Below are positions 12,647 through 36,335 of a stretch of 37,334 bases of DNA, one piece after another; position 1 is the stretch's first letter, and each line of letters begins with the position of its first letter. A program made the position numbers and the translations under genes. This stretch comes from Pseudomonadota bacterium (GTDB lineage Bacteria > Desulfobacterota > Syntrophorhabdia > Syntrophorhabdales > Syntrophorhabdaceae). The DNA is taken from assembly GCA_026388315.1 (NCBI GenBank), contig JAPLKA010000081.1, positions 1 to 37,334 on the forward strand. Reading direction: 5' to 3'. Below the pieces are notes generated by a model, which ran no database searches, was not told the DNA's origin, and saw only the letters and a program-made list of their open reading frames with translations.

Positions 12647-13301
12647 GCAATTTCATCTGCTTTTTCTGTTAATTGTATCAGTGTTGTTTCAAGCTCTATT
12701 CTTTTCGCTTCGGTTTCTTCCGGAGAGGCATCCCTGCTTATGTATATCGGGTCTCCCCACAGAAAAACAACCCTGGAAAAGGGGTATGGGAGAATAAAGC
12801 TATCCCATGATTTGAAAGTTTTTTTTTACTTGCGCCGTAGGTTAAAGGCATTATAGGTTTTCCCGTCAATTTCGCAAGTTCTATAATGCCCTTTTTTACG
12901 CTATATTTTGGCCCTTTAGGACCGTCAGGTGTTATGGCTACATCAAAACCATTTTTCAAATCAGATATTATTTCCCGGAGCGAAGAAATGCTTCCTTCTT
13001 TCCTGTAGGAACCCCTTATGGAGCCAAGACGGAAATAGGTCATGATCCGCGCAATAAACTCACCATCTCTGTGCCTGCTTATCAAGACCTTCCCCTTCCC
13101 CCTTCTGTTTGCAAAAGGCATCATAAGCAGTCTTCCATGCCAGAAACAAACAATAAATGTTTCGCCATTATCCCACATCTTGTAAGCGGTTTCGTGATAT
13201 ACATGGCGTACTTTTGTGGTCAATTTTATAAAGGTTATGAATACATAGACCAACGGGGGAAGTACATGTAACATAATAATATATTTTGCTTTTTTAAACA
13301 T
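12634..13301 (-). pseudogene. DUF374 lysophospholipid acyltransferase-family protein, frameshifted at A9
   Basis: LPLAT-like acyltransferase of the DUF374 family, often found next to msbA and waaA. It shows CFWHGRLLMMPF (active-site His region), SRHRDGEF and TPDGPKGPKYSVKKG. The frame as given stops at 12738 (187 aa), with an alien tail after ASKKK. At 12819-12827 the coding strand has nine A residues. Shifting to the -1 frame there continues with TFKSWDSFILPYPFSRVVF, then LWGDPIYISRDASPEETEAK, and ends at 12634-12636 for a total of 222 residues, normal for the family. Either the assembly lacks one A, the gene is broken, or slippage at A9 (ribosomal -1 or transcriptional) makes the full product. 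The start overlaps the msbA stop by 8 nt. Confidence 0.85.
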
Positions 13302-15057
13302 TTTTTACCTTTTTCGGAATTTTTATCACCTTTTTTGATGAAGTATCTCTAAATTGCAGTTCATACAGCTTCTGATAAGGTCCTTCTAACTCTATCAATT
13401 CTTTATGTGCTCCAGCCTGAACTATTGTTCCTCCTTCGAGGACAATAATCCTGTCTGCGTTCATTATAGTGGAGAGTCTGTGTGCAATGACAATCGTTGT
13501 CCTCCCCTTCATTAAATTATCAAAGGCCTTCTGCACCTCCACCTCTGAAGCTGCATCAAGAGAGCTTGTGGCCTCATCCAGGATAAGGATCGGGGTATTT
13601 TTATAGAGGGCTCTTGCAATAGCTATCCGTTGTTTTTGCCCACCCGACAAACGTATGCCCTTTTCGCCAACTACGGTATCATATTGTTTGGGAAGCTTCG
13701 TTATAAAATCACAGGCATACGCCATCCCGGCTGCCTCTTCGATTTTTTCCATATCCTGAGTCTCACCATAACATATATTTGACTTAATGGTGTCATTAAA
13801 GAGGATTACATCCTGTGTAACAAGGGCAATATTCCTTCTTAAAGAGTTAAGGGTTATATTCCTTATATCAATATTATCAACCTCTATGCATCCTCTTGTC
13901 ACATCATAGAAACGGGGGATAAGATTTGCCAGAGTAGTTTTTCCTACCCCGCTTTCTCCTACAATAGCAAGGATTTCGTTCTGGTTAATTTTCAAGTTTA
14001 TGTTATTCAGTATCATCTTATCGTCGTACCTAAAAAATACATCTTTAAAATCAATAATGCCTCTGACCTTTTCAAGGTTGATTGCATCGTCATGTTCAAG
14101 TATTTCTGGTTTGCGATCGATAACCTCAAACACCCTCTGGCTGGCGGCAAGTCCCTGTTGTATGTTGTGGTTTTCCCGGTTAAGCCTCTTGATCGGCTCA
14201 TAGAGCATTAAAAGAGCAGCCGTGAAGGAGAAAAAATTACCGGGCGTTGACTTACCGGATATAACCTCACTACCTCCATACCAGATTATAACGGCTATAG
14301 CGATCCCGCCAAGCACTTCCATTATGGGAGAAGAAAGCGCCCGTATTTTATAGCGCTTTAAGATAATATGAAATAGTGTTTCGTTTTCTTCCTTAAATCT
14401 CTTGCTCTCATATTCTTCCATGCAAAAGGCCTTAACAATGCGTTGGCCGGTGATGGTTTCGTGCAAAAAATTGGTTAATTTTGCCATCTCTTTTTGTGTT
14501 TTCGTACTTATCCTTCTCAATCTTCTCCCGAAGCTGACAATAGGGTATATCGCAAAAGGCAGGACAACAAAGGCAATGGCTGCAAGTTTCCAGTCCCTGT
14601 AAAAAACAACGAATATAAGGCCGATAATAGTAAAAACATCCTTCAGGATCGCCGTAAAAGCATCAGATACAGCACTTTGTACCAGTGTCACATCATTTAT
14701 TATTCTCGAAATTATCGTACCAGTTGGAGTCTTGTCAAAGTATGCTAAGGGCTGTTTCTGCAATGCGTTAAAAATTTCATCCCTTATATCTGTAATCACT
14801 TTCTGCCCTACAAAACCCATCAGGTATGCCTGGAAATAATCAAAAATACCCTTTAAAAGGTAGAGTATAACTACCCCGAAGGGGATTATGCTAAGCATTG
14901 TTGCATTTTTTTCGAAAAATATGTTGTCCAATACAGGTTTTACAATATATGCAGTCAAACCGTTTGTGGATGCCACAAGGGCCATAAAAATCATGGCAAA
15001 AACAAGTTTTGGCCAGTAAGGTTTTAGATACGTAAGGAGTCTAAGGTAGAGCGCCAT
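13294..15057 (-). CDS. msbA: Lipid A export ABC transporter MsbA
   Basis: A 587-residue half-transporter that flips lipid A-core across the inner membrane as a homodimer. The N-terminal ~310 residues form six membrane segments with the type-1 exporter fold. The ATPase domain follows, with Walker A GESGVGKTTLA, signature LSGGQKQRIAIARAL, Walker B ILILDEATSSLD and the H-loop His in IVIAHRLST. ATG 15057 overlaps the lpxB end. The lipid A context supports MsbA over other exporters. Confidence 0.93.
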   Translation of the reverse strand: MALYLRLLTYLKPYWPKLVFAMIFMALVASTNGLTAYIVKPVLDNIFFEKNATMLSIIPFGVVILYLLKGIFDYFQAYLMGFVGQKVITDIRDEIFNALQKQPLAYFDKTPTGTIISRIINDVTLVQSAVSDAFTAILKDVFTIIGLIFVVFYRDWKLAAIAFVVLPFAIYPIVSFGRRLRRISTKTQKEMAKLTNFLHETITGQRIVKAFCMEEYESKRFKEENETLFHIILKRYKIRALSSPIMEVLGGIAIAVIIWYGGSEVISGKSTPGNFFSFTAALLMLYEPIKRLNRENHNIQQGLAASQRVFEVIDRKPEILEHDDAINLEKVRGIIDFKDVFFRYDDKMILNNINLKINQNEILAIVGESGVGKTTLANLIPRFYDVTRGCIEVDNIDIRNITLNSLRRNIALVTQDVILFNDTIKSNICYGETQDMEKIEEAAGMAYACDFITKLPKQYDTVVGEKGIRLSGGQKQRIAIARALYKNTPILILDEATSSLDAASEVEVQKAFDNLMKGRTTIVIAHRLSTIMNADRIIVLEGGTIVQAGAHKELIELEGPYQKLYELQFRDTSSKKVIKIPKKVKNV

Positions 15058-16237
15058 ATGTATGTTCCAAAAACTCTACTATTATTTTTGCTGCCATCTT
15101 ATAAGAATTCTCTTTTCCAAGCTTTATTTTCATATTATCAATTTCGACTTTTATCTTTTCCTTACCATTACTTAACATATAGAGCGCTTTCTCTGCAATC
15201 TTTTCAACGTCGAATGTTTGAATAAATTCAGGGAAAACCTCTTTTCCGGCTATGATATTGGGCAAACTGATATAGTTAATCTTCACAAGCAGTCTCGCAA
15301 AAACATACGATAACGGTGATATCTTATAAATAACAATCGTTGGCGTTCCAAGGATTGCCGCCTCAAGGGTTGCACTGCCCGATGCAATGATCGCCAGGTC
15401 AGAATTCGCGAGAGCATCGTATGACAAGCCTTTTAAATACGTGATCTCTATATTTCCTTTCTGGTATTTCTCAATAATCTTCTGGTCAATGTTTTCAGCC
15501 AGAGGCAACAATATTTTCAGGTTTTCAACCCTTTTCTCAATCGCTTCGATTATGTCCATCAGGATGGGCATGTGCTTTTCTACCTCATTATCTCTGCTCC
15601 CGGGCATAATCGTTAAAACAGGAGCCTTTCCGTCAGTCCCTGCCATTCTTAAAAAATCCTCTCTCGTATGCAAAGGTTTAACAATTTCCATGTACGGGTG
15701 TCCTGCATAGGCTACGTCAATGGAATAATCTTCATATATTTTTTTCTCAAAGGGGAGGATACAGATTACCTTATTCACATATTTTTTTATTTTATATATC
15801 CGTTTCTTTCTCCATGCCCATATCTGGGGTGGGATGAAATAGATGACAGGAATACCGAGGTTATGCGCAAACCTGGCTATTCTCATATTGAAACCCGGAA
15901 AATCTACCAGAATAAGCAGCGATGGCCTTTTCTCTCTCAAATGCTTTTTTATTTTACTGAAGGCATCCCGAATATGGTGAAGCTTTGAAAATATTTCACT
16001 CAGGCCGGTTAATGATATATTTTTGTAATCGTAAACAATGTCTACGCCTGTGTCTCTGAGCTTAGTACTGCCAATTCCGCTGAATTGAAAATCAAAAGAA
16101 TGTTTTAACTCATCGATGAGGTGGGATGCATGAATTTCGCCAGAAAGCTCACCGGTTATGATGACTATCTTTTTATTAAACTTTCCGTTAAGCTTTGTTT
16201 CTGGCAATATATGCTTTGATTTGTTCGGCAATGACAA
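15041..16237 (-). CDS. lpxB: Lipid-A-disaccharide synthase
   Basis: Condenses UDP-2,3-diacylglucosamine with lipid X to form the lipid A disaccharide. The GT19 protein shows IITGELSGEIHASHL near the N-terminus, VDFPGFNMRIARFAHNLGIP, YFIPPQIWAW and the MPGSRDNEVEKH motif. The start is unusual. No ATG precedes the conserved region; the frame opens with TTG at 16237 (AAGGG upstream, with a second TTG at 16231), overlapping the oxidoreductase gene by 50 nt. The conserved part starts about residue 24, so an unusual start inside the upstream gene is likely. It overlaps msbA by 17 nt. Confidence 0.92.
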   Translation of the reverse strand: MSLPNKSKHILPETKLNGKFNKKIVIITGELSGEIHASHLIDELKHSFDFQFSGIGSTKLRDTGVDIVYDYKNISLTGLSEIFSKLHHIRDAFSKIKKHLREKRPSLLILVDFPGFNMRIARFAHNLGIPVIYFIPPQIWAWRKKRIYKIKKYVNKVICILPFEKKIYEDYSIDVAYAGHPYMEIVKPLHTREDFLRMAGTDGKAPVLTIMPGSRDNEVEKHMPILMDIIEAIEKRVENLKILLPLAENIDQKIIEKYQKGNIEITYLKGLSYDALANSDLAIIASGSATLEAAILGTPTIVIYKISPLSYVFARLLVKINYISLPNIIAGKEVFPEFIQTFDVEKIAEKALYMLSNGKEKIKVEIDNMKIKLGKENSYKMAAKIIVEFLEHTYGALP

Positions 16238-17111
16238 GGGCCCTTAATCCCTCTCTACCTCCGACACACAGTGTCTTATCACCCCTGATCGAATAAATAA
16301 ATTCTGACAATTCTTCTTTTACAGAATCTACCTTATCTGCTTCGTATTCGAGGGTCTCGATACTTCCATCCTGTTTTTTGGTTTTACCTGTTAATCTGCC
16401 ATTCAGCAAGTCTACAAAATATTGTTTATTCTTCTCAAATATTGTGATGTTCCTTTCTTTATTAACCGATACCCTGCTGGCAGTTATACAAGCAACGCAA
16501 CCCCCTGCAAACCCAAGCCATGCGCTCACCATATCCAGTTTATCAGAGGCAAAATGTAAGCCATGCGCCCTTATTTCCGTTACATCTTCTTTCACTATAG
16601 AAAGTGTCAAATCAATATCATGGATCATCAGATCCAACACTACATCGATATCCGTGGACCTGCCGGTGAAATTACTCATTCTCCGGGCTTCTATAAATAA
16701 AGGTTTTTTGATGTGAGATATTGCCTCCTTGTACGCCGGGTTAAATCTCTCCAAATGGCCAATCTGCAAGATTAAGCCCTGCTTTTCTGCAAGTTCAACA
16801 AGTTCTTCTCCCTGGCTTATTTCCGATGTTATTGGCTTTTCGATAAAAACATGGACTCCTTTTTCAAGGAAATATTTTGCAACTTCGTAGTGTGTCCCGG
16901 TTGAGCTTGCTATGACAACTCCTGCCTGACCATCAGGAATATCTCTATGGTCTGCAAATATTGGTACCTGATGCTTTTCAGATATATTATTTAATATATT
17001 CCTGTCAACATCAACCACCCCTCCGACTTCAACATCTTCGAAATCTATCAGTTTTCCGAGGTGTATCCTGCCCATATGACCAGCGCCGATAAGGGCGATT
17101 TTCAACGACAT
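16188..17111 (-). CDS. Gfo/Idh/MocA oxidoreductase in lipid A operon
   Basis: A 307-residue NAD(P)-dependent sugar oxidoreductase. It has the Rossmann start ALIGAGHMGRIHLGKL, the EKPITSE motif with the catalytic-region Lys (FIEKPIT) and DLMIHDIDLTLS with the conserved His. Lying between lpxA and lpxB, it resembles GnnA, which oxidises UDP-GlcNAc at C3 so that GnnB can install a 3-amino group for amide-linked lipid A. No GnnB-type aminotransferase is adjacent, so its substrate is open. ATG 17111 has GAGGGG upstream and overlaps the lpxA end by 10 nt. Confidence 0.85.
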   Translation of the reverse strand: MSLKIALIGAGHMGRIHLGKLIDFEDVEVGGVVDVDRNILNNISEKHQVPIFADHRDIPDGQAGVVIASSTGTHYEVAKYFLEKGVHVFIEKPITSEISQGEELVELAEKQGLILQIGHLERFNPAYKEAISHIKKPLFIEARRMSNFTGRSTDIDVVLDLMIHDIDLTLSIVKEDVTEIRAHGLHFASDKLDMVSAWLGFAGGCVACITASRVSVNKERNITIFEKNKQYFVDLLNGRLTGKTKKQDGSIETLEYEADKVDSVKEELSEFIYSIRGDKTLCVGGREGLRALVIAEQIKAYIARNKA

Positions 17112-17869
17112 ATTCCCCTCTTTGAGTTATTGATGAAATCTATCAATTCTTTTATCTTTTCACCATCCAATTCTTCCTGAATTATTTTAAGTGATGTACT
17201 GAGCGGCAAAGACGACCTGAAGAGAATTCTGTATGCCTTTTTTAATTTTAAGATTTCGTCCTTCGAAAAATTATGCCTCTCAAGACCCACAACGTTCAGT
17301 CCATAAGGCTTAGCCCTGCTCCCGGCAGCTATTATATAAGGGGGTATATCTTTTGGAACACCTGTAAGCCCGCTTATAAAAGCATATTTCCCAATTTTGC
17401 AAAACTGGTGTACTGCGCAAAGACCGCCAAAAATAACAAAGTCATCCACCTCTACATGTCCGGCAAGTGTTGCACAATTTGCCATAATGATATTATTCCC
17501 AACGACACAGTCATGGGCAATATGGGCATATGCCATAATGAAGTTGTTGTTTCCCACTTTAGTGACACCGCTGTCGTGTGGAGTCCCCCTGTTAATTGTC
17601 ACATATTCCTTTATAATGTTGTTATGCCCTACCACTACCGTGGTATCTTCGCCCTTATATGTAAGATCCTGTGGCGGACTGCCAATGGATGTGAAAGAGC
17701 TGATTGTACAGTTTTCACCAATCTCGGTACCATCCTGGATAATAACGTGTCCAAGGATTTTTGTTCCCTTTCCTATCTTCACCTTTTCTTCAATAATGCA
17801 ATAAGGGCCTACATGGACATCAGAATCGACATGCGCATTTTTATGAATGATTGCAGTTGGGTGTATCAA
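17102..17869 (-). CDS. lpxA: Acyl-ACP--UDP-N-acetylglucosamine O-acyltransferase
   Basis: First step of lipid A synthesis: transfers a 3-hydroxyacyl chain to UDP-GlcNAc. The 255-residue length is standard. A left-handed beta-helix of hexapeptide repeats begins IHPTAIIHKNAHVDSDVHVG. The catalytic His lies in MAYAHIAHDCVVGNN, followed by HQFCKIGKYAFISGLTG and the C-terminal helical domain (GLNVVGLERHNFS). Translation starts at TTG 17869 with AAGGAG about 7 nt upstream, 10 nt after fabZ. A nearby Gfo/Idh enzyme raises the possibility of a 3-amino sugar substrate. Confidence 0.95.
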   Translation of the reverse strand: MIHPTAIIHKNAHVDSDVHVGPYCIIEEKVKIGKGTKILGHVIIQDGTEIGENCTISSFTSIGSPPQDLTYKGEDTTVVVGHNNIIKEYVTINRGTPHDSGVTKVGNNNFIMAYAHIAHDCVVGNNIIMANCATLAGHVEVDDFVIFGGLCAVHQFCKIGKYAFISGLTGVPKDIPPYIIAAGSRAKPYGLNVVGLERHNFSKDEILKLKKAYRILFRSSLPLSTSLKIIQEELDGEKIKELIDFINNSKRGICR

Positions 17870-17879
17870 CGTATTCTCC

Positions 17880-18308
17880 TTATTCCTGTTTTAACATTGC
17901 CATAATTCTCGCTTCAGCAACAACTTCATTGTCAACATAGGCTTTACCCTCAAAAACCCATATTTCTCTTCTGTGTTTTATGACCTCTAAAACAAGTTTT
18001 ATCTGGTCCCCGGGAATCACAGGTTTTCTGAAACGTGCATCATCAATGCCTGTAAAAAATACCAGGCCTTTTTTCTCCGGAAAGCTTTTAAATGCAAGAA
18101 CCCCGCCTGTTTGAGCCAGGGCTTCAATAATGAGTACCCCGGGCATAATTGGTCTTTGCGGAAAATGACCTGTGAAATAAGGCTCATTAAAAGTCACATT
18201 TTTTATACCAACAATTCTTTTAGCAGGTTCGAATTCAAGAATCCTGTCTACAAGGAGAAAGGGATAACTATGAGGCATAAGTTGCATTATTTCATTAATA
18301 TCAATCAT
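17880..18308 (-). CDS. fabZ: 3-hydroxyacyl-ACP dehydratase FabZ
   Basis: Dehydrates 3-hydroxyacyl-ACP in fatty acid elongation. The 142-residue hot-dog protein shows LMPHSYPFLLVDRILE with the catalytic His, FTGHFPQRPIMPGVLIIEAL with the catalytic Glu, and AQTGG. Its placement between lpxD and lpxA is the common order and balances 3-hydroxyacyl supply between phospholipid and lipid A. ATG 18308 is one base away from the lpxD stop. Confidence 0.96.
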   Translation of the reverse strand: MIDINEIMQLMPHSYPFLLVDRILEFEPAKRIVGIKNVTFNEPYFTGHFPQRPIMPGVLIIEALAQTGGVLAFKSFPEKKGLVFFTGIDDARFRKPVIPGDQIKLVLEVIKHRREIWVFEGKAYVDNEVVAEARIMAMLKQE

Positions 18309-18309
18309 C

Positions 18310-19332
18310 TCAAGCCTCCAGATTGAGTCTTTTTTCTATTTTTTTCATCCTCTCATACAATTTTGGCAGGTTCTTAAGATAGCCTTGAAGCTTTAACCAT
18401 TCCTTATGCGGCATATGGGGCGTACCTGAGATGAGAGAATTATCAGGGACATCCTTTGTGATCCCCGTTCCTCCTGCTGCCATCACATTATTCCCGATGC
18501 TTACGTGATCCTTCACGCCAACCCGCCCCGCAAGAACCACATTGTTACCTACAGAGGAGCTTCCCGCAATTCCCACCAGAGCCACAATGATAGAATTCTC
18601 ACCAATGGACACATTATGTGCAATCTGAACAAGGTTATCAATTTTTGTGCCTTTTTTAATGATAGTTCTTCCAAGAGAAGCCCTGTCAATCGTTACGTTC
18701 GCTCCAATCTCCACCTCATCCTCTATTTCCACAATTCCGAGTTGGGGAATTTTCACATGTCTCGATCCATCCCATACATAACCAAACCCATCACTTCCCA
18801 AAACTGCACCACTGTGAATAATTACATTTTTCCCTATTATCACCCCATCGTATACCGTAACATGAGGATACATGATCGTACCCTCTCCGATTACTGCATT
18901 TTCACCTATATGAACAAACGGATAGAGAATGGCATTGCTTTGGACTACTGCCCCTTCGCCGATATACACATACGGGTAGACACTTGCTGTCTCTGATACT
19001 TCTGCACCCTTTGAAACAGAGGCTAAGGGGTTTATTCCCTTCGCTTCGGGATATCCTTTATGAAAAATCTGTGCTGCCCTGGCATATGCAAGCCCAGGAT
19101 TTTTCGCAATGATAAGGTTTTTATCGGAATAATCATCAGGATTTATATCCTCACCGACAATGATGGCCGATGCTTTTGTGTCTTTTATGTGTTTCCTGAA
19201 ACTTTTCTGGGAAAGAAAGGTTATATCGCCTTCCTGCGCTTCAATCATGCCTGAAATACGCGTTATGGCGATATTCCCATCGCCTGTTAAACGGCCCCCT
19301 ATTTTTTCAGCAATATCTTTTAATGTAATCAT
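18310..19332 (-). CDS. lpxD: UDP-3-O-acylglucosamine N-acyltransferase
   Basis: Third step of lipid A synthesis: adds the N-linked 3-hydroxyacyl chain. The 340-residue protein has the N-terminal LpxD nucleotide-binding domain (TLKDIAEKIGGRLTGDG), a long hexapeptide beta-helix, and the catalytic region LVQIAHNVSIGENSII with its His. The C-terminal helix is rich in Lys and Leu (LPKLYERMKKIEKRLN). The start overlaps the ompH stop as ATGA. Confidence 0.95.
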   Translation of the reverse strand: MITLKDIAEKIGGRLTGDGNIAITRISGMIEAQEGDITFLSQKSFRKHIKDTKASAIIVGEDINPDDYSDKNLIIAKNPGLAYARAAQIFHKGYPEAKGINPLASVSKGAEVSETASVYPYVYIGEGAVVQSNAILYPFVHIGENAVIGEGTIMYPHVTVYDGVIIGKNVIIHSGAVLGSDGFGYVWDGSRHVKIPQLGIVEIEDEVEIGANVTIDRASLGRTIIKKGTKIDNLVQIAHNVSIGENSIIVALVGIAGSSSVGNNVVLAGRVGVKDHVSIGNNVMAAGGTGITKDVPDNSLISGTPHMPHKEWLKLQGYLKNLPKLYERMKKIEKRLNLEA

Positions 19333-19874
19333 TTTTTAGGAGCTGGCTTCTTTTTCGCAAAATCATTATATTGGGCAATGACTTTATTCGTTATATCAAT
19401 TGAAGGACTTGCAAAGAGTATGCCTGCCTGACTTTTTTCGAGAATAAGGGTGTGCTTATCTTTTTCTCCTATGGTTTTGATTACCTGTTCAACATCTTTT
19501 AATATTCTCTGAGTAAACTCTCCATCTTTTTGCTGCAACTCAGTCTGGTAATCATTGGCTAATCTCTGATAATCTTTCTGTTTATTCTGAAAATCTTTTT
19601 CTTTTCCAGCCCTTGCATCCGGGGTAATTGTGGCGCTCTGTCGCTCTATTACATCCTTCATTTTTTGTAACTCTTCCTGTTTGCCGTCCAACAGCTTCTT
19701 TAATCTCTCGGCTTCGCCTGTCAGTGAATTTTTTGCTTCCTTGCCTTTGTCAGATTCAAGCATAACCCTCTGAAGATCAACGTAAGCGATGTTTAAATTC
19801 TGAGCATTAACCGGGAATGTCAAAGTAAATAGAGTAGAAAGAGCAACCAGGACAATAAAAATAAAATTCTTCAT
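19329..19874 (-). CDS. OmpH/Skp-family periplasmic chaperone
   Basis: A 181-residue secreted coiled-coil protein that escorts unfolded outer-membrane proteins to the BAM machine. It has a signal peptide (MKNFIFIVLVALSTLFTLTFPVNAQ), the family opening NIAYVDLQRVMLES, then long charged helices with Lys, Glu and Gln heptads (about residues 50-130) forming the tentacles. ATG 19874 has AAGGAGG well placed. It sits between bamA (11-nt gap) and lpxD, the usual arrangement. Confidence 0.92.
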   Translation of the reverse strand: MKNFIFIVLVALSTLFTLTFPVNAQNLNIAYVDLQRVMLESDKGKEAKNSLTGEAERLKKLLDGKQEELQKMKDVIERQSATITPDARAGKEKDFQNKQKDYQRLANDYQTELQQKDGEFTQRILKDVEQVIKTIGEKDKHTLILEKSQAGILFASPSIDITNKVIAQYNDFAKKKPAPKK

Positions 19875-19885
19875 ACTGCCTCCTT

Positions 19886-22150
19886 TTAATATTGTGTACC
19901 CATAGCAAAATCAAAAACGCTTCCTCGCTCATCCTGTCTTGGATTAAGATTAAACCCAAGTTCAAGACGAATTGGACCCATAGGAGAAAACCATCTTATA
20001 CCAAACCCTGCTGAGGTCCGGACACCGTTCAGCAGCCAACCGTTTGAATCGTCAAAGGCATGTCCCGCATCGAAAAACAGCACACCTTTAAACCCGGCAG
20101 GTTTATAAATGGGGAAAATCCACTCACAATTAAAAAACAATTGATTCTTGCCTCCGATAACTTCTCCGGTATTATCCAGTGGACCTGCTTCGCCGTATTT
20201 AAAACCCCTTACCGTTTGCAACCCGCCTACATAAAATTTTTCATAAACAGGCACTTCTTTTCCTCCATACCCTTGTATCGTTCCAGCGGTACCTCTTATA
20301 AAAAACGTGCTATCCCAGAAACCAGCAGGAATATATCTCCCATAAAAAGCTATGACCCTATAGAAAGAGTTATCGCCGGCGAATGGGCCACCTGCAAGCT
20401 CAAAGGATGTTTCTGTATTTATTCCTATGTGAGGGTTCATTATATCATCAATGGTGTTCTCTCCAAGGGAAAAAGTTACACTGCTTGTTGACAATGTGCC
20501 TGCCTGATCCTGTATATAAGTGCTTGCTGAAGCATCGATATTTGTTACACTGGTGGTCTCATACCTGTACCTGACGCTTCCTTTTACATCATCAGTCAGG
20601 GGCTTTATAAGGGATACACTTCCGCCCCATTTATTATAAGTATATGTATCCATAATTCTTCCAAAATTGAATACGCTTAACCCCGCATGCATGTTTAAAT
20701 CAAAAATATAAGGTTCTAAATACGAAAAATTATATTGCTGCGTAATAGCGCCCAAAGAAGCCGTAAGATAAAGTTTTCTTCCTGTGCCCAGGAAGTTTTC
20801 TTGAGATATACTTCCAGACAGAATGAGCTTATCATACGAACTGTAGCCAACCCCGGCACTCAAAGAACCTGTAGGTTTTTCTTCAACAGTAATATCCGTA
20901 TTGATCTTGTCCGGCTCATCTGTTTTTATAATCTTGAAATCGGCATTTTTAAAAAATGTGGTGTTTCTCAGGCGCTTCTGACTTTTTTTAAGGTTTGTTG
21001 CAGAAAACCTTTCACCCTCTACAATTCTCAACTCCCTTCGCACCACCTTGTCTCTTGTCTTCGTATTTCCCAATATATTGATTCTGTTGATAAATATCTC
21101 TTCGTTTTTCTTTATATCAAAAGTAATATTTACTTTTTGTGTTTCATCATCTATTAAAGTGAGGGGGGAGATTTCGCAGAAGGCATAGCCTTTATCCTGG
21201 TAAAAATCGTTAAGCCTCATAACATCCCGTTGAAACATGGTGGACCTGAAGGTATTATCAGTTTTACTTCTTAACTCTTTATTCATTACCTCTTTATCGA
21301 ATAAAATATCCCCGGAAAAATCTACTGAGCCTACTTTGTATAGATTTCCCTCCTCAACGGGTAATGTAAGGCTCATCGTTTTCCCATCCTGAGAAATTTT
21401 AACGTCAGGAACACCTACCTTTACCCTCACATAACCGTTGTCGTTATAAAAGGCTTCGATGTTTTTCCTGTCATCATCAAGCGCCTCTTCATCGAGAATA
21501 CCGGAACCATCAAACCAATAAAACATGTCTTTCTTTCTTGTTCTCATAAAATCTTTCAACTTACTGTCTTTAAATGTCTTATTCCCCGTAAAAGCAATTT
21601 TTGTAACATATGCCTTCTCGGGTTCATCAATTAAAAACTTTACGCTTGCCTCGTAGCCTTCCTCATAATCAATTTCGTAATTAACCTTTGTTGCATAATA
21701 ACCTTTGCTTGAATAAAACTTTCTGATTTCATCCATGCTTTCTTTTATCTTTTCAATATTAAGTACGGTGTTGGTTTTGATTTTAAGTTTTTCAGTGATT
21801 TCGGTTGTTTTGAGTTTTTTATTGCCTGACAATAAGATATTTTTGATTGGTGGTCTTTCAATAACCACAAAAGTTACGGTTTTCCCTTTATCGGTATCCT
21901 GAACGTCTATCTGGACATCGCTAAAAAAACCAGTTTTATAGATATTTTTCATGTCGTCCTGGATTTTATCAAGGCTGTATGGTTCGTTTTCCTTGATTTT
22001 TATGTTGTTCATTATAAAACCTGTGTCGATCCTTTCGTTTCCCGTCACGTTGATCTTTGCAATTTTATTTGGCTCATCGGCCCGGATAATACCCGGAAAC
22101 GCGCAGAAAACCACTAAAAAAATGACAATAATTGTCTTGAAAGTCCTCAT
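19886..22150 (-). CDS. bamA: Outer membrane protein assembly factor BamA
   Basis: Core of the machine that folds beta-barrel proteins into the outer membrane. The product (about 754 residues) has a signal peptide (RTFKTIIVIFLVVFCAFPG), five POTRA domains (to about residue 420) and a C-terminal 16-strand barrel with the VRGFKYGEAGP motif of the L6 loop and a Tyr-terminated last strand. I prefer ATG 22150 over the in-frame TTG at 22162, because the TTG lies inside the predicted -10 box and would be upstream of transcription start. It is the first gene of the 11-gene operon. Confidence 0.94.
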   Translation of the reverse strand: MRTFKTIIVIFLVVFCAFPGIIRADEPNKIAKINVTGNERIDTGFIMNNIKIKENEPYSLDKIQDDMKNIYKTGFFSDVQIDVQDTDKGKTVTFVVIERPPIKNILLSGNKKLKTTEITEKLKIKTNTVLNIEKIKESMDEIRKFYSSKGYYATKVNYEIDYEEGYEASVKFLIDEPEKAYVTKIAFTGNKTFKDSKLKDFMRTRKKDMFYWFDGSGILDEEALDDDRKNIEAFYNDNGYVRVKVGVPDVKISQDGKTMSLTLPVEEGNLYKVGSVDFSGDILFDKEVMNKELRSKTDNTFRSTMFQRDVMRLNDFYQDKGYAFCEISPLTLIDDETQKVNITFDIKKNEEIFINRINILGNTKTRDKVVRRELRIVEGERFSATNLKKSQKRLRNTTFFKNADFKIIKTDEPDKINTDITVEEKPTGSLSAGVGYSSYDKLILSGSISQENFLGTGRKLYLTASLGAITQQYNFSYLEPYIFDLNMHAGLSVFNFGRIMDTYTYNKWGGSVSLIKPLTDDVKGSVRYRYETTSVTNIDASASTYIQDQAGTLSTSSVTFSLGENTIDDIMNPHIGINTETSFELAGGPFAGDNSFYRVIAFYGRYIPAGFWDSTFFIRGTAGTIQGYGGKEVPVYEKFYVGGLQTVRGFKYGEAGPLDNTGEVIGGKNQLFFNCEWIFPIYKPAGFKGVLFFDAGHAFDDSNGWLLNGVRTSAGFGIRWFSPMGPIRLELGFNLNPRQDERGSVFDFAMGTQY

Positions 22151-22161
22151 TAAGAATAGCA

Positions 22162-22190
22162 AAATTAACAGAAAAATGCCTTATTGTAAA
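22162..22190 (-). promoter_or_regulatory. Promoter for bamA operon
   Basis: On the minus strand: TTTACA (22185-22190), 17-nt spacer and TAATTT (22162-22167). Transcription would begin near 22155, about 5 nt before ATG 22150, so the mRNA would be nearly leaderless. No Shine-Dalgarno is seen. Confidence 0.5.
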
Positions 22191-32070: not shown

Positions 32071-33006
32071 CTAACGTTCAATCAATTTCGTGCGGTACTG
32101 GATATAGATGTCGCGCATGGCCACATAAGGGTCGATGGCTGCCTCTTTGATCATCTCATATTCACCCAGATGGAATGAGGTGTCGTTGACCTTTTCGTGG
32201 ACGTATAGCCCTACGCTTTCCGGGCTGAACCATTCCGAACTGACGTAAGTTGTGGGCCTTAGCGTCCAGTCCACAAGCCATCCAAATCCGTCACGTGGAC
32301 TGGAAGGACCGAGGAAAGGCAATACAAGATAGAAACCGAAACCGACACCATATTTGCCAAGCGTCTGGCCGAAATCCGCATAGCGGCCGTTGATCCCGAA
32401 ACACTCTTTTGCGCAATCCCTTAAACCCCCTACTCCAAGAGTGGAGTTGATGAAAAACTTTGCAAGCTCAATCGCTGCAAACCGCGGCTTCCCTTGCAGC
32501 AAATTGTTCACGATGCGAATAGGCGCCTTGATGTTTTCGTAGAAGCTGCTGAAGAGACCCCTGACTTCTTCCGGCACAACATACTTATAGCCATGGGCAA
32601 GGGGTTTCCATACCCAGAAATAGACTTTATCGTTAAAGTGATATATAGCCATGTTAAAGGGCTCTATAGGATCGGCAATACGCAGCTCTTCGCCGGCGGC
32701 GGCTTCTTCTTCAGTCACATTGCCGTATTCATCGGAGGACTTTTCTGCGGCGGTAACCGGAACAGACCCGGCTTCTTCAGTCACATTGCCGTATTCATCG
32801 GAAGACTTCTCTGCGGCGGTAACCGGAACAGACCCGGCTTCCTCCGACTGTTCCCCTGCCGCCGGAACATTTATAACAGCGCTAATATTCGGATCGGGGC
32901 TATCAGAGGCTGCGTGCAGGGGTGGACAGCCGAGAAACAGAAAGAGCAGGAGAATCAGGCTTATTGTCGGTCTGAGAAAGTTTATCCTTTTCAAACACAG
33001 TGTCAT
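32071..33006 (-). CDS. mlaA: Outer-membrane lipid asymmetry lipoprotein MlaA (VacJ)
   Basis: Removes misplaced phospholipids from the outer leaflet of the outer membrane and hands them to MlaC. About 311 residues from ATG 33006: a hydrophobic signal ending in FLFLGC (lipidation Cys plausible though the lipobox is imperfect), an acidic low-complexity linker, then the MlaA core with DPIEPFNMAIYHFND, FINSTLGVGGLRD and YVVLPFLGP-like LVLPFLGPSSPRD. The linker contains a tandem 22-residue repeat (AGSVPVTAAEKSSDEYGNV and flanks, 66-bp unit). A GTG at 33021 overlapping the mlaC stop is an alternative start; GAGG upstream of the ATG favours 33006. Confidence 0.92.
   Translation of the reverse strand: MTLCLKRINFLRPTISLILLLFLFLGCPPLHAASDSPDPNISAVINVPAAGEQSEEAGSVPVTAAEKSSDEYGNVTEEAGSVPVTAAEKSSDEYGNVTEEEAAAGEELRIADPIEPFNMAIYHFNDKVYFWVWKPLAHGYKYVVPEEVRGLFSSFYENIKAPIRIVNNLLQGKPRFAAIELAKFFINSTLGVGGLRDCAKECFGINGRYADFGQTLGKYGVGFGFYLVLPFLGPSSPRDGFGWLVDWTLRPTTYVSSEWFSPESVGLYVHEKVNDTSFHLGEYEMIKEAAIDPYVAMRDIYIQYRTKLIER
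32705..32836. repeat. 66-bp tandem duplication inside mlaA
   Basis: Two nearly identical 66-bp units (about 32705-32770 and 32771-32836) differ at a couple of positions (GGAGGACTTTTC against GGAAGACTTCTC) and keep the frame. They lengthen the acidic linker between lipid anchor and MlaA domain. Confidence 0.85.
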
Positions 33007-33017
33007 ATCCTGCCGCC

Positions 33018-33611
33018 TCACTTCTTCCCGACCTTCTTGCGCAGGGTCTCGAGGAGCGTCTCCGGCGGGTTGTTTCCGAGTATCTCCCGGAACTGGGTGC
33101 GGTAGTTGTTAATCAAACTCACCCCTTCGATGACCACATCATATACCTTCCAGTTATTTTCCTTTTTCATAACTCTATAAAAAATGGGTGTTTCGCCGCC
33201 CTTTGACACGATTGTACTCTGGACCTCCACCGTAGTTTCAGAAAGAGGTACCTCCCTGGTAAAGTTTACCCGCTCATTGGTGTAAGCTGTGATTTTATCG
33301 ACGTAAGCGTTTTTGAGTATCGTCCTGTAAAGCTCAACGAATTCTTTTCGCTGCTCCGGGGTAAATTTGTTCCAGTTCAGGCCCAGGGTCCTCTTGGAGA
33401 GTTCCACATAATCGAAAAGCTTGTCAGCAGCGGCCTCAACTCTTTGCTCTTTTACCTTTTTGCCCGCTTCTCCTTTGAGCTTGGGGTCGCCGAGTATGTC
33501 GAGTACGCCGTTCACATTTGTTTTTACGGTCTCGAGCGGAACGCCTGCAAAGGTATGAATGGGGAGCATTAACATCACCACAAGCATGAGTCTACCAAAC
33601 CATCTTTTCAC
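33018..33611 (-). CDS. mlaC: Periplasmic phospholipid-binding protein MlaC
   Basis: Soluble carrier that shuttles phospholipid between MlaA and the MlaFED complex. About 197 residues from GTG 33611, which has AAGGAGG 5 nt upstream and opens a clear signal peptide (KRWFGRLMLVVMLMLPIHTF AG split). The mature part shows the family pattern TLGLNWNKFTPEQRKEFVEL, YRTILKNAYVDKI and KENNWKVYDVVIEGVSLINN. The longer frame back to 33746 runs over repeat words and is unlikely. Overlaps mlaA slightly if the latter uses GTG. Confidence 0.92.
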   Translation of the reverse strand: MKRWFGRLMLVVMLMLPIHTFAGVPLETVKTNVNGVLDILGDPKLKGEAGKKVKEQRVEAAADKLFDYVELSKRTLGLNWNKFTPEQRKEFVELYRTILKNAYVDKITAYTNERVNFTREVPLSETTVEVQSTIVSKGGETPIFYRVMKKENNWKVYDVVIEGVSLINNYRTQFREILGNNPPETLLETLRKKVGKK

Positions 33612-33749
33612 AATATCCTCCTTGGTCTTTATAAAGAAAGTGATGAAGAATGGCAATGTAAGGTAAAAGTGGAAACGTAAAACGCGCAACTGAAAAGTAT
33701 TCAAAATTCTTAATTCATAATTCTTCATTGTATTTGCATTTGACATTGC
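33612..33749. other. 138-bp gap in the mla operon with AATTCT words
   Basis: Between mlaD and mlaC. It holds AATTCTTAATTCATAATTC words near 33700-33725, also seen at 24167-24200. The frame is open through this DNA, so a longer MlaC could be mis-called. No promoter stands out. Confidence 0.45.
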
Positions 33750-34235
33750 CTACTTAGTCAGTTTTTCCGGGGCCTTGTCCGGCTCTTTTTTGGTGTCCCC
33801 GAATGCATACTTGCCTATCAGATCTTCGATGTCCGCCGGTACAGAAGTTTGCGTGATCATGCCGCCCGGCTTCAGAAGTTCGCCGGCTCCACCCGGGTCT
33901 ATTTTTACATATTTATCCCCGATGAGCCCGGAGCTCTTTATGGTGGCTGACGCATCATCGTAGACCTTCATTTCTTTTTTAATAGCCATTCCAACGACCG
34001 CCATCTGTCTCTCGGCGTCTATGCTCAGGCTCGTCACACTGCCCACTTCGATCCCGTAAATTTCAACTGTGCTGCCGGCTCTCAGTGCAGATACCGAGGC
34101 GAACCGGGCATAAAGCGGGTACGTGTCTTGTCCGAAGAGAGAAACCTTGCCGAACTTCACGGTCATATAGCCAACACATACGAGACCAATCACCACAAAA
34201 ACACCCACAGCCGTCTCTATGGAATACTTTTTCAT
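33750..34235 (-). CDS. mlaD: MlaD, MCE-domain phospholipid transport subunit
   Basis: Substrate-binding subunit of the Mla ABC complex; hexameric MCE rings hold the lipid channel. The 161-residue protein has one N-terminal membrane segment (TAVGVFVVIGLVCVGYMTV), the MCE domain (about residues 38-118: SVSALRAGSTVEIYGIEVGS, SSGLIGDKYVKIDPGG) and a short charged tail with VPADIEDLIGKY. Length is normal. Its ATG overlaps the mlaF stop as TAATG, suggesting coupling. Confidence 0.94.
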   Translation of the reverse strand: MKKYSIETAVGVFVVIGLVCVGYMTVKFGKVSLFGQDTYPLYARFASVSALRAGSTVEIYGIEVGSVTSLSIDAERQMAVVGMAIKKEMKVYDDASATIKSSGLIGDKYVKIDPGGAGELLKPGGMITQTSVPADIEDLIGKYAFGDTKKEPDKAPEKLTK

Positions 34236-35485
34236 TACGCACTACCTCCTGAATCGCATCGGTGTGTTGCAACAATCTCTTGTTTTGCCCGGGCATTCTC
34301 GATAATCTGATCGATGGTATCCGTGGGAGAGACCTCTGCAACCCCGGCACGGATGAAGATATCAAAACATGCTTCAGCGCCTATCTTCTCCGCGGCAATA
34401 TTCTCAATACTGTCCAAGGCCTTCAGCTTCAGCTCCTGCGCAAAATTAGATACCAGTTTCTGTGCCTTGTCAATGCTCGTGTGAGGAAATATCGTCAGAA
34501 TCTCATCCCTGCTGTGACGGGCAGAAAAACCCCCAATGGGGTTAAACCGCCTGTTGGTATATTCGCCGAGGGTCCTGAGGATTTCCATCGCTGCCTGTGG
34601 CCCTAACGCGTCATGCAGAAGATTCAGCCGAATGCTGAAAAGCGCCGCTGAAACGGCTGCTACCGTGGCCGTACCACCCAGCATAGCCGCATAATGGACT
34701 CTGAAGGCCTCCCGGGAAAGCAGACCCGTAAGTTCGTCCTCGAACCCTTCCAGGCTGCGGAGGAATTCATCGATAAGGGGAAGTTTCCGGTTGACGGCAT
34801 CTTCGTAAGTCCCCTCGAAGCCGACCGTTCCCTCCCAGAGGATGACAATCCGGTCCGAGATAAAAAAGACATCAGGAATGTCGTGGCTGATCATAACGGC
34901 GGTAAACCCGAACTTTCTCCGGTAATGGGTAATCATACTCAGAATCATGTTTTTCCTGATGGGGTCCTGACCCGTGGTCGGCTCGTCAAAAAGCACGATC
35001 TTCGGGTCCGTCACCAGCGCCCGTGCCAGGGCCACCCGTTTCTGCATCCCGCCGGAAAGCTCCGAAGGGTACTTATGAACCGCTTCGGTAAGCTCTAAGT
35101 CTTCGATCCTTTTCAGTACCCGTTTTTCAATCTCTTTCTTGCTAAGATTCGTCGTCTGCCGCAGAGGAAATGCCACATTGTCGAAGACCGTCATCGAGTC
35201 GAGGAGGGCATTGTTCTGAAACAGATAGGCGATCGCTCTTCTGTATTCCTCCCATTCACGCTTTTTCATTTTATCAATGGGTTGTCCCTCAAAGAGGATA
35301 GTGCCCTCATCCGGTTTGAGGAGTCCGATAATATGTTTAAGAAGCACGCTTTTGCCTGTGCCGCTCTTCCCGATGATCGTCGTAATCTGGTTTTCATAGA
35401 TTTTCAGGTTAACCTTGTCGAGCACGGTCTTTTCACCAAACCGCTTAGTGATGTTTCTGAATTCTATTAAAGGTGTTATCTCCAT
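34235..35485 (-). CDS. mlaF: MlaF ATPase with C-terminal degenerate GGDEF-like domain
   Basis: ATPase of the Mla phospholipid transporter. Residues 1-245 are a complete ABC domain: Walker A GKSGTGKS (39-46), Q-loop Gln90, signature LSGGMQKR (143-150), Walker B VLFDEPTTG (164-172) and H-loop His201. Usual MlaF proteins stop near 270 residues; this one has 416. The extension begins DELTGLLSREAFRVH (250-264), the standard opening of GGDEF domains, and holds SRDEILTIFPHTSIDKA (325-341) at the place of GG(D/E)EF and the following strand. The DxDxF metal motif and the GHxxGD loop are missing (SIRLNLLHDALGPQAAMEIL), so diguanylate cyclase activity is very unlikely. No mlaB is present; the domain may regulate the ATPase. 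It lies between mlaE and mlaD in one operon. Confidence 0.88.
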   Translation of the reverse strand: MEITPLIEFRNITKRFGEKTVLDKVNLKIYENQITTIIGKSGTGKSVLLKHIIGLLKPDEGTILFEGQPIDKMKKREWEEYRRAIAYLFQNNALLDSMTVFDNVAFPLRQTTNLSKKEIEKRVLKRIEDLELTEAVHKYPSELSGGMQKRVALARALVTDPKIVLFDEPTTGQDPIRKNMILSMITHYRRKFGFTAVMISHDIPDVFFISDRIVILWEGTVGFEGTYEDAVNRKLPLIDEFLRSLEGFEDELTGLLSREAFRVHYAAMLGGTATVAAVSAALFSIRLNLLHDALGPQAAMEILRTLGEYTNRRFNPIGGFSARHSRDEILTIFPHTSIDKAQKLVSNFAQELKLKALDSIENIAAEKIGAEACFDIFIRAGVAEVSPTDTIDQIIENARAKQEIVATHRCDSGGSA

Positions 35486-35492
35486 AAAATCC

Positions 35493-36335
35493 TTACATAA
35501 GAAATGACGTTACTACATAATCAGCAATCAGAATCATTACACATGAAAGCACAACAGCCGAGATAGTGGCAAGGCCTACCGACTTTGATCCATAACCATC
35601 GGTCCGCATATGGCAGAAATAGCCCTGAAAACAGCAGACGCAGGAGACAATGACAGCGAAAACCAGGGCTTTTATAAACCCACCCCTGACATCCACCATA
35701 TCGAGGGAAGATTGCACACGGTAAAAATATGTGCCTCCGCTCGTCCCCAACAGGAGAACACCGGTTATATATCCCCCTATGATCCCGATGAGGTCAAAAA
35801 AGGCAGTGAGCAGGGGAAAACTGATGATTGATGCGGCGATCCTCGGGCTGATAAGATACCGCACAGGATCAATCCGCATGGTATACAGGGCATCGATTTG
35901 CTCTGATATACGAAGGATCCCGATCTCCGCAGCCATCCCGGAACCGGCACGTGCAGTGATCATGACTGCCGTGAGGACCGGCCCCATTTCCCTGATAAGC
36001 GAGAGGGATACGGCAGATCCGAGCGCCCCTACAGAGCCGAACTTTACCAGAGTATGAAAAAGCTGCAAACCGAGCACCATACCCGTGAAAAGACCCACCA
36101 GCATCACGATTAAGGACGATGTGGCACCGATATAGTATACCTGGTTTACGATCTCGCGGAATTGTTTTCGCCGGAAGATATTGATAAATGCCAAGGAAAA
36201 GAAAACAACCATTGCGCCAAGATTACCCACCAGACTGATAGTCCTTTTACCGATGGCAGGAAAGAGGAGTGCTAAAGGGTTGTTCCACTGTGGTGATCCT
36301 GTGCCTTTCACGTGTTCACTTTTTTCCTTTCTCAT
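35493..36335 (-). CDS. mlaE: MlaE, Mla ABC transporter permease
   Basis: Membrane permease of the phospholipid transporter. The 280-residue protein has a charged N-terminal ~30 residues and then about five membrane helices with the MlaE/Ttg2B hallmarks LREMGPVL-like LIREMGPVLTAVMITARAGSGMAAEIG and MRIDPVRYLISPR. This short cytoplasmic loop contacts MlaF. ATG 36335 lacks a good Shine-Dalgarno, so a start further in is possible. First gene of the operon mlaE-F-D-C-A. Confidence 0.93.
   Translation of the reverse strand: MRKEKSEHVKGTGSPQWNNPLALLFPAIGKRTISLVGNLGAMVVFFSLAFINIFRRKQFREIVNQVYYIGATSSLIVMLVGLFTGMVLGLQLFHTLVKFGSVGALGSAVSLSLIREMGPVLTAVMITARAGSGMAAEIGILRISEQIDALYTMRIDPVRYLISPRIAASIISFPLLTAFFDLIGIIGGYITGVLLLGTSGGTYFYRVQSSLDMVDVRGGFIKALVFAVIVSCVCCFQGYFCHMRTDGYGSKSVGLATISAVVLSCVMILIADYVVTSFLM

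Follow-up and report, generated by a model that had tools for sequence, protein, structure and literature searches.

A degenerate GGDEF domain at the C-terminus of the MlaF ATPase in an mla operon without mlaB

The assembly and regulation of the Mla transporter are known from a few proteobacteria, and in these both MlaB and the handshake tail of the ATPase MlaF are needed. In E. coli, the handshake extension (residues 247-269) wraps around the second MlaF of the pair. When it is deleted, MlaF and MlaB drop out of the purified complex, and growth is largely restored by fusing an artificial dimeriser, GCN4, to the shortened MlaF (PMC7367683). E. coli MlaB binds chiefly to the helical subdomain of MlaF. 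C-terminal domains that self-associate under the dimer are found in other ABC ATPases (PMC7367683). The MlaF described here shares its ATPase domain and its partners MlaE, MlaD, MlaC and MlaA with the MlaFEDB systems of E. coli, A. baumannii and P. aeruginosa. However, it ends in a GGDEF domain of some 165 residues instead of the 23-residue handshake extension of E. coli MlaF, and its operon differs in lacking MlaB, in including mlaA and in its gene order, E-F-D-C-A. No description of an MlaF with a GGDEF domain, or of ABC or MCE proteins with one, was found in a search of open-access papers.

The operon lies on the minus strand of the window (the whole stretch of 37,334 nucleotides that was analysed) and runs from 36335 to 32071 in the order mlaE-mlaF(GGDEF)-mlaD-mlaC-mlaA (E-F-D-C-A):

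35493..36335, minus strand: mlaE, permease without a STAS domain (Pfam MlaE, 5.8e-71)
34235..35485, minus strand: mlaF-GGDEF fusion gene, 416 aa (single ORF kept across 58 related proteins)
33750..34235, minus strand: mlaD, short MCE protein (Pfam MlaD, 2.6e-19; TIGR04430 above cut-off)
33018..33746, minus strand: mlaC (Pfam MlaC, 7e-47)
32071..33021, minus strand: mlaA (Pfam MlaA, 1.9e-65)

The fusion is a single ORF with an ATG start, and its stop codon shares one base with the start codon of mlaD. A plus-strand reading of 34235-35485 was ruled out by the stops present. Encoded with mlaE, a short mlaD, mlaC and mlaA, the fused MlaF has the gene context of an Mla ATPase; its position between mlaE and mlaD and the operon order are kept in almost all fused loci.

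Two other features of the window were recorded. Close to the start of mlaA, at 32706-32841, the 66-bp unit EEAGSVPVTAAEKSSDEYGNVT is repeated in tandem, in 2.1 copies with a 97% match. Farther away, positions 12738-22162 hold a putative outer-membrane/lipid A cluster which, as read from the translations only, includes BamA-like, Skp-like, LpxD-, LpxA-, LpxB-like and MsbA-like proteins.

Within the fused protein, the following parts can be distinguished:

34751..35485, minus strand: MlaF nucleotide-binding domain, residues 1-245 (NCBIfam PRK11831, MlaFEDB chains in the PDB, motifs)
34739..34777, minus strand: conserved junction helix, residues 237-249, LIDEFLRSLEGFE (helical in both models)
34292..34738, minus strand: degenerate GGDEF domain, residues 250-398, with the fold reaching to about 408 (Pfam, model, structure matches)
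34634..34636, minus strand: S284 in place of the lost metal-binding Asp (alignment with true GGDEF domains)
34499..34513, minus strand: SRDEI, residues 325-329, at the position of the GGDEF motif (alignment)

The first part is an MlaF-type ABC ATPase with intact motifs: Walker A (GKSGTGKS from residue 39), the signature (LSGGM from 143), Walker B (IVLFDEP from 163) and the H-loop (H201). The best NCBIfam match of the fused protein is the MlaF equivalog PRK11831 (6e-60), at 203 bits far under its cut-off of 441 bits, and the nearest solved relatives of the ATPase part are the MlaF chains in the MlaFEDB complexes of the PDB. A profile of the fused family aligns to residues 7-245 of E. coli MlaF, and the ATPase part ends at about E. 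coli residue 245-247. The full-length AlphaFold model was too poor in this part (mean pLDDT 65.5) to place the two domains, and a structure search with it was taken up by ABC ATPases; the tail was then modelled separately.

The remaining residues, 246-416, make up the tail. Its GGDEF-like nature, which had been proposed in the first-pass annotation together with the intact ATPase, was borne out by profile and by fold. Pfam GGDEF aligns to residues 250-398 with 24.4 bits (E 2.7e-5) for the tail alone, which passes the cut-off of 23.8 bits, and with 21.8 bits for the whole protein. The tail-only model, built with 21 relatives, reached a mean pLDDT of 81.6 and a pTM of 0.81. Its top Foldseek match is PleD (E 9e-7, probability 1.00), and a second structure aligner gave Z 15.6 against PleD over 149 residues at 2.6 A, with GGDEF-domain proteins in all of its best 50 rows. 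In a profile search of the PDB, the top solved relative of the tail is LapD (3e-6), which is itself degenerate. Profile match and fold together place the tail in the GGDEF superfamily. Pfam GGDEF scores among the fused relatives run from 75.2 bits in L177, a basal member from another family, through 56.5, 48.6, 35.9, 30.9, 28.5 and 23.4 down to 18.0 bits. This series is best described as a decay gradient from a true GGDEF domain, and it is by these relatives that homology is settled. Since the fold is confirmed by the model and the structure search, and the fusion is present in tens of genomes, the fusion is not a chance occurrence.

The residues required for catalysis are gone, again as the first-pass annotation had it. 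When 58 fused proteins were aligned with two canonical GGDEF proteins, none of the 58 was seen to retain the metal Asp (Ser in 22, Thr in 16, Glu in one), and neither the GG[DE]EF motif nor the Asp of GHxxGD occurs in any of them. The tail in the window and all 58 fused proteins thus lack both the metal Asp and GG[DE]EF, which mark an active diguanylate cyclase. Other elements persist: the LTG (within DELTGL, which begins at residue 250) and the Gly of GH are near-invariant, and R323, immediately before SRDEI, is found in 58/58. The best-conserved elements of the tail are DxLTG and beta2-beta3 with R323, and the junction helix also ranks among its best-conserved segments. The conservation of DxLTG and of beta2-beta3 with R323 marks no interface, because these elements belong in part to the core that every GGDEF fold has. 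Beyond the GGDEF core and close to the C-terminus, the Cys of HRC (residues 408-410, window 34256-34264) is kept in most fused proteins with a weighted share of 0.64. As judged from its residues, the tail is a predicted catalytically dead GGDEF domain.

Degenerate GGDEF domains are also known from LapD, FimX and CsrD. There, the fold without catalysis is used as a receptor or scaffold and sits with EAL and other signalling domains, whereas here it sits on a transporter ATPase. The tail could be read as a nucleotide sensor, in which c-di-GMP, GTP or another ligand would switch phospholipid transport. Consistent with this reading, the best PDB profile match, LapD, is a c-di-GMP receptor whose own GGDEF domain is degenerate. 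The second messenger is likely made in this organism, as its genome contains 14 GGDEF matches elsewhere (Pfam GGDEF search at E 1e-3, a threshold at which the fusion in the window is missing from the list). Furthermore, RxxD is kept at the I-site position in 6/58 fused proteins, all from basal branches. In the window, however, both I-site residues have been replaced (P316 and G319), so that the mark of a c-di-GMP I-site receptor is gone, as it is in most relatives, and the metal ligand of the GTP site is absent from all fused proteins. A sensor role is therefore rather doubtful. It was also considered in a bolder form, namely that MlaF-GGDEF is a pseudo-cyclase receptor coupling lipid transport at the outer membrane to nucleotide signalling in the cytoplasm. 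RxxD is kept in part of the basal branch, which would bind c-di-GMP, and the later branches would have switched to another ligand or to constant activity. This form is speculative and appears unlikely.

The fusion is old and common to many sulfate-reducing and syntrophic bacteria. A first scan gave 21 full-length relatives of 62-93% identity, and a whole-genome search found the tail in 29/46 genomes of the class. With a broader profile, full-length matches were obtained in 52/395 genomes of the phylum, from 18 families (as numbered by the search tool), and in 8/246 genomes of Nitrospirota. The named relatives are Syntrophaceae, Syntrophorhabdaceae and other Thermodesulfobacteriota. When a tree was built from the ATPase part, 49 fused proteins grouped into a single clade with SH-aLRT 92; the 23 plain Mla-type MlaF and the STAS-linked MlaF included in the tree fall outside it. 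Because the fused proteins stand together, apart from plain and STAS-linked MlaF, a single fusion explains all sampled cases, and the fusion looks like a single event. The sister to the fused clade is the plain MlaF L191, in which the tail could have been lost or could never have been present.

Additional copies were encountered in two genomes. In G176, the mlaA gene that closes a complete fused operon is followed directly downstream by another fused MlaF, of the basal type (L059:474-1829, minus strand), and the contig ends shortly after. In addition to a normal operon with the fusion on a different contig (L077), G044 has an orphan MlaF-GGDEF (L076:5432-6679, plus strand); no match to mlaE, D, C or A lies within 12 kb of it.

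Given the lost catalytic residues, the tail might be a neutral remnant without function, and it does evolve faster than the ATPase: dN/dS is 0.09-0.32 in the tail (eight pairs, the value of 0.32 coming from a nearly identical pair) and 0.03-0.08 in the ATPase part. The values for the tail nevertheless lie well under 1. In addition, the tail is full length in nearly all members, from at least 18 families, and it contains the invariant Arg and the near-invariant LTG and Gly residues. The tail is under purifying selection, and a functionless remnant is very improbable.

The operon contains no mlaB or other STAS gene by Pfam, which agrees with the first-pass annotation; in the narrow sense, with MlaB encoded alongside, it does not qualify as MlaFEDB. 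STAS matches are likewise absent from 43 fused loci (448 kb), as searched with the models PF13466 and PF01740, which a very divergent MlaB could escape. In one fused genome, G073, which is 99% complete, neither model gave a STAS match. The genome of the window does have such matches, namely a STAS-MlaE fusion of another system (contig C49), a stand-alone protein that adjoins another small regulatory-looking gene (C130) and one on C19, none of them linked to the mlaE-mlaF(GGDEF) operon.

In the first-pass annotation it had been proposed that the tail replaces MlaB; it would then bind MlaF, and activate it, at the place that the STAS protein occupies in E. coli. The loci without a STAS gene and G073 fit this proposal. 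So does the list of Coudray et al., in which Rickettsia alone among 13 'true Mla' species is without an MlaB-like gene (PMC7790496). The published pictures of MlaB occurrence differ by sample, however: in a broad bacterial survey, MlaEFD was described as the ancestral core, with MlaA, B and C narrower (PMC10665443). Moreover, the phylum also contains about 23 sampled mlaE-F-D operons (with C/A) in which a plain MlaF, mostly of about 250-277 aa, has neither a tail nor a nearby STAS gene; as the MlaE survey took high-scoring matches first, the proportions are rough. The genome of the window itself has another mlaE-F-D locus on contig C91, with plain MlaE, F and D and neither tail nor STAS. MlaB absence is therefore not tied to the fusion. 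For a replacement of MlaB by the tail there is no specific support. The tail is also C-terminal, whereas MlaB binds mainly to the helical subdomain. Altogether, replacement of MlaB is unlikely. An MlaB-like partner does occur inside the phylum: in family f39 (L140, L145, L195), a stand-alone STAS gene precedes mlaF-mlaE, with a plain MlaF.

The position of the tail points elsewhere. As the ATPase part ends at about E. coli residue 245-247, the GGDEF domain starts at the same point as the handshake, and for this reason the tail is better placed as standing in for the handshake than for MlaB. We lean, with moderate confidence, towards a dead GGDEF domain that has been recruited to dimerise or regulate MlaF from its C-terminus, at the site of the handshake. 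Within the phylum, an ancestral MlaF would have gained a diguanylate-cyclase-type GGDEF domain at its end in a single fusion. Catalysis would already have been gone by the oldest sampled branches, and the domain would since have been kept on the ATPase, taking the place of the short extension seen in E. coli. The most likely arrangement has the tail beneath the ATPase dimer, paired with the second tail or packed against the adjacent MlaF. There, it would hold the two ATPases together on MlaE and tune ATP hydrolysis, like the C-terminal domains of MetN and MalK. These transporters likewise have a folded domain after the ATPase, and by analogy the tail is expected below the dimer as theirs is; it differs from them in its GGDEF origin and in belonging to a lipid (MCE) transporter. 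The simplest inference is that the tail would do the work of the handshake as a folded domain, perhaps with added control. Dimerisation, regulation and an effect on transport are inferred, beyond the identity, fold, catalytic losses, single clade, conservation, operon context and position that the analysis established.

The fusion suggests a built-in dimerising or regulatory part that lies outside the standard models of the Mla transporter. A large bacterial group with a folded tail of signalling origin and no MlaB offers a natural experiment on the roles of MlaB and the handshake. It may also link nucleotide signalling to the lipid balance of the outer membrane.
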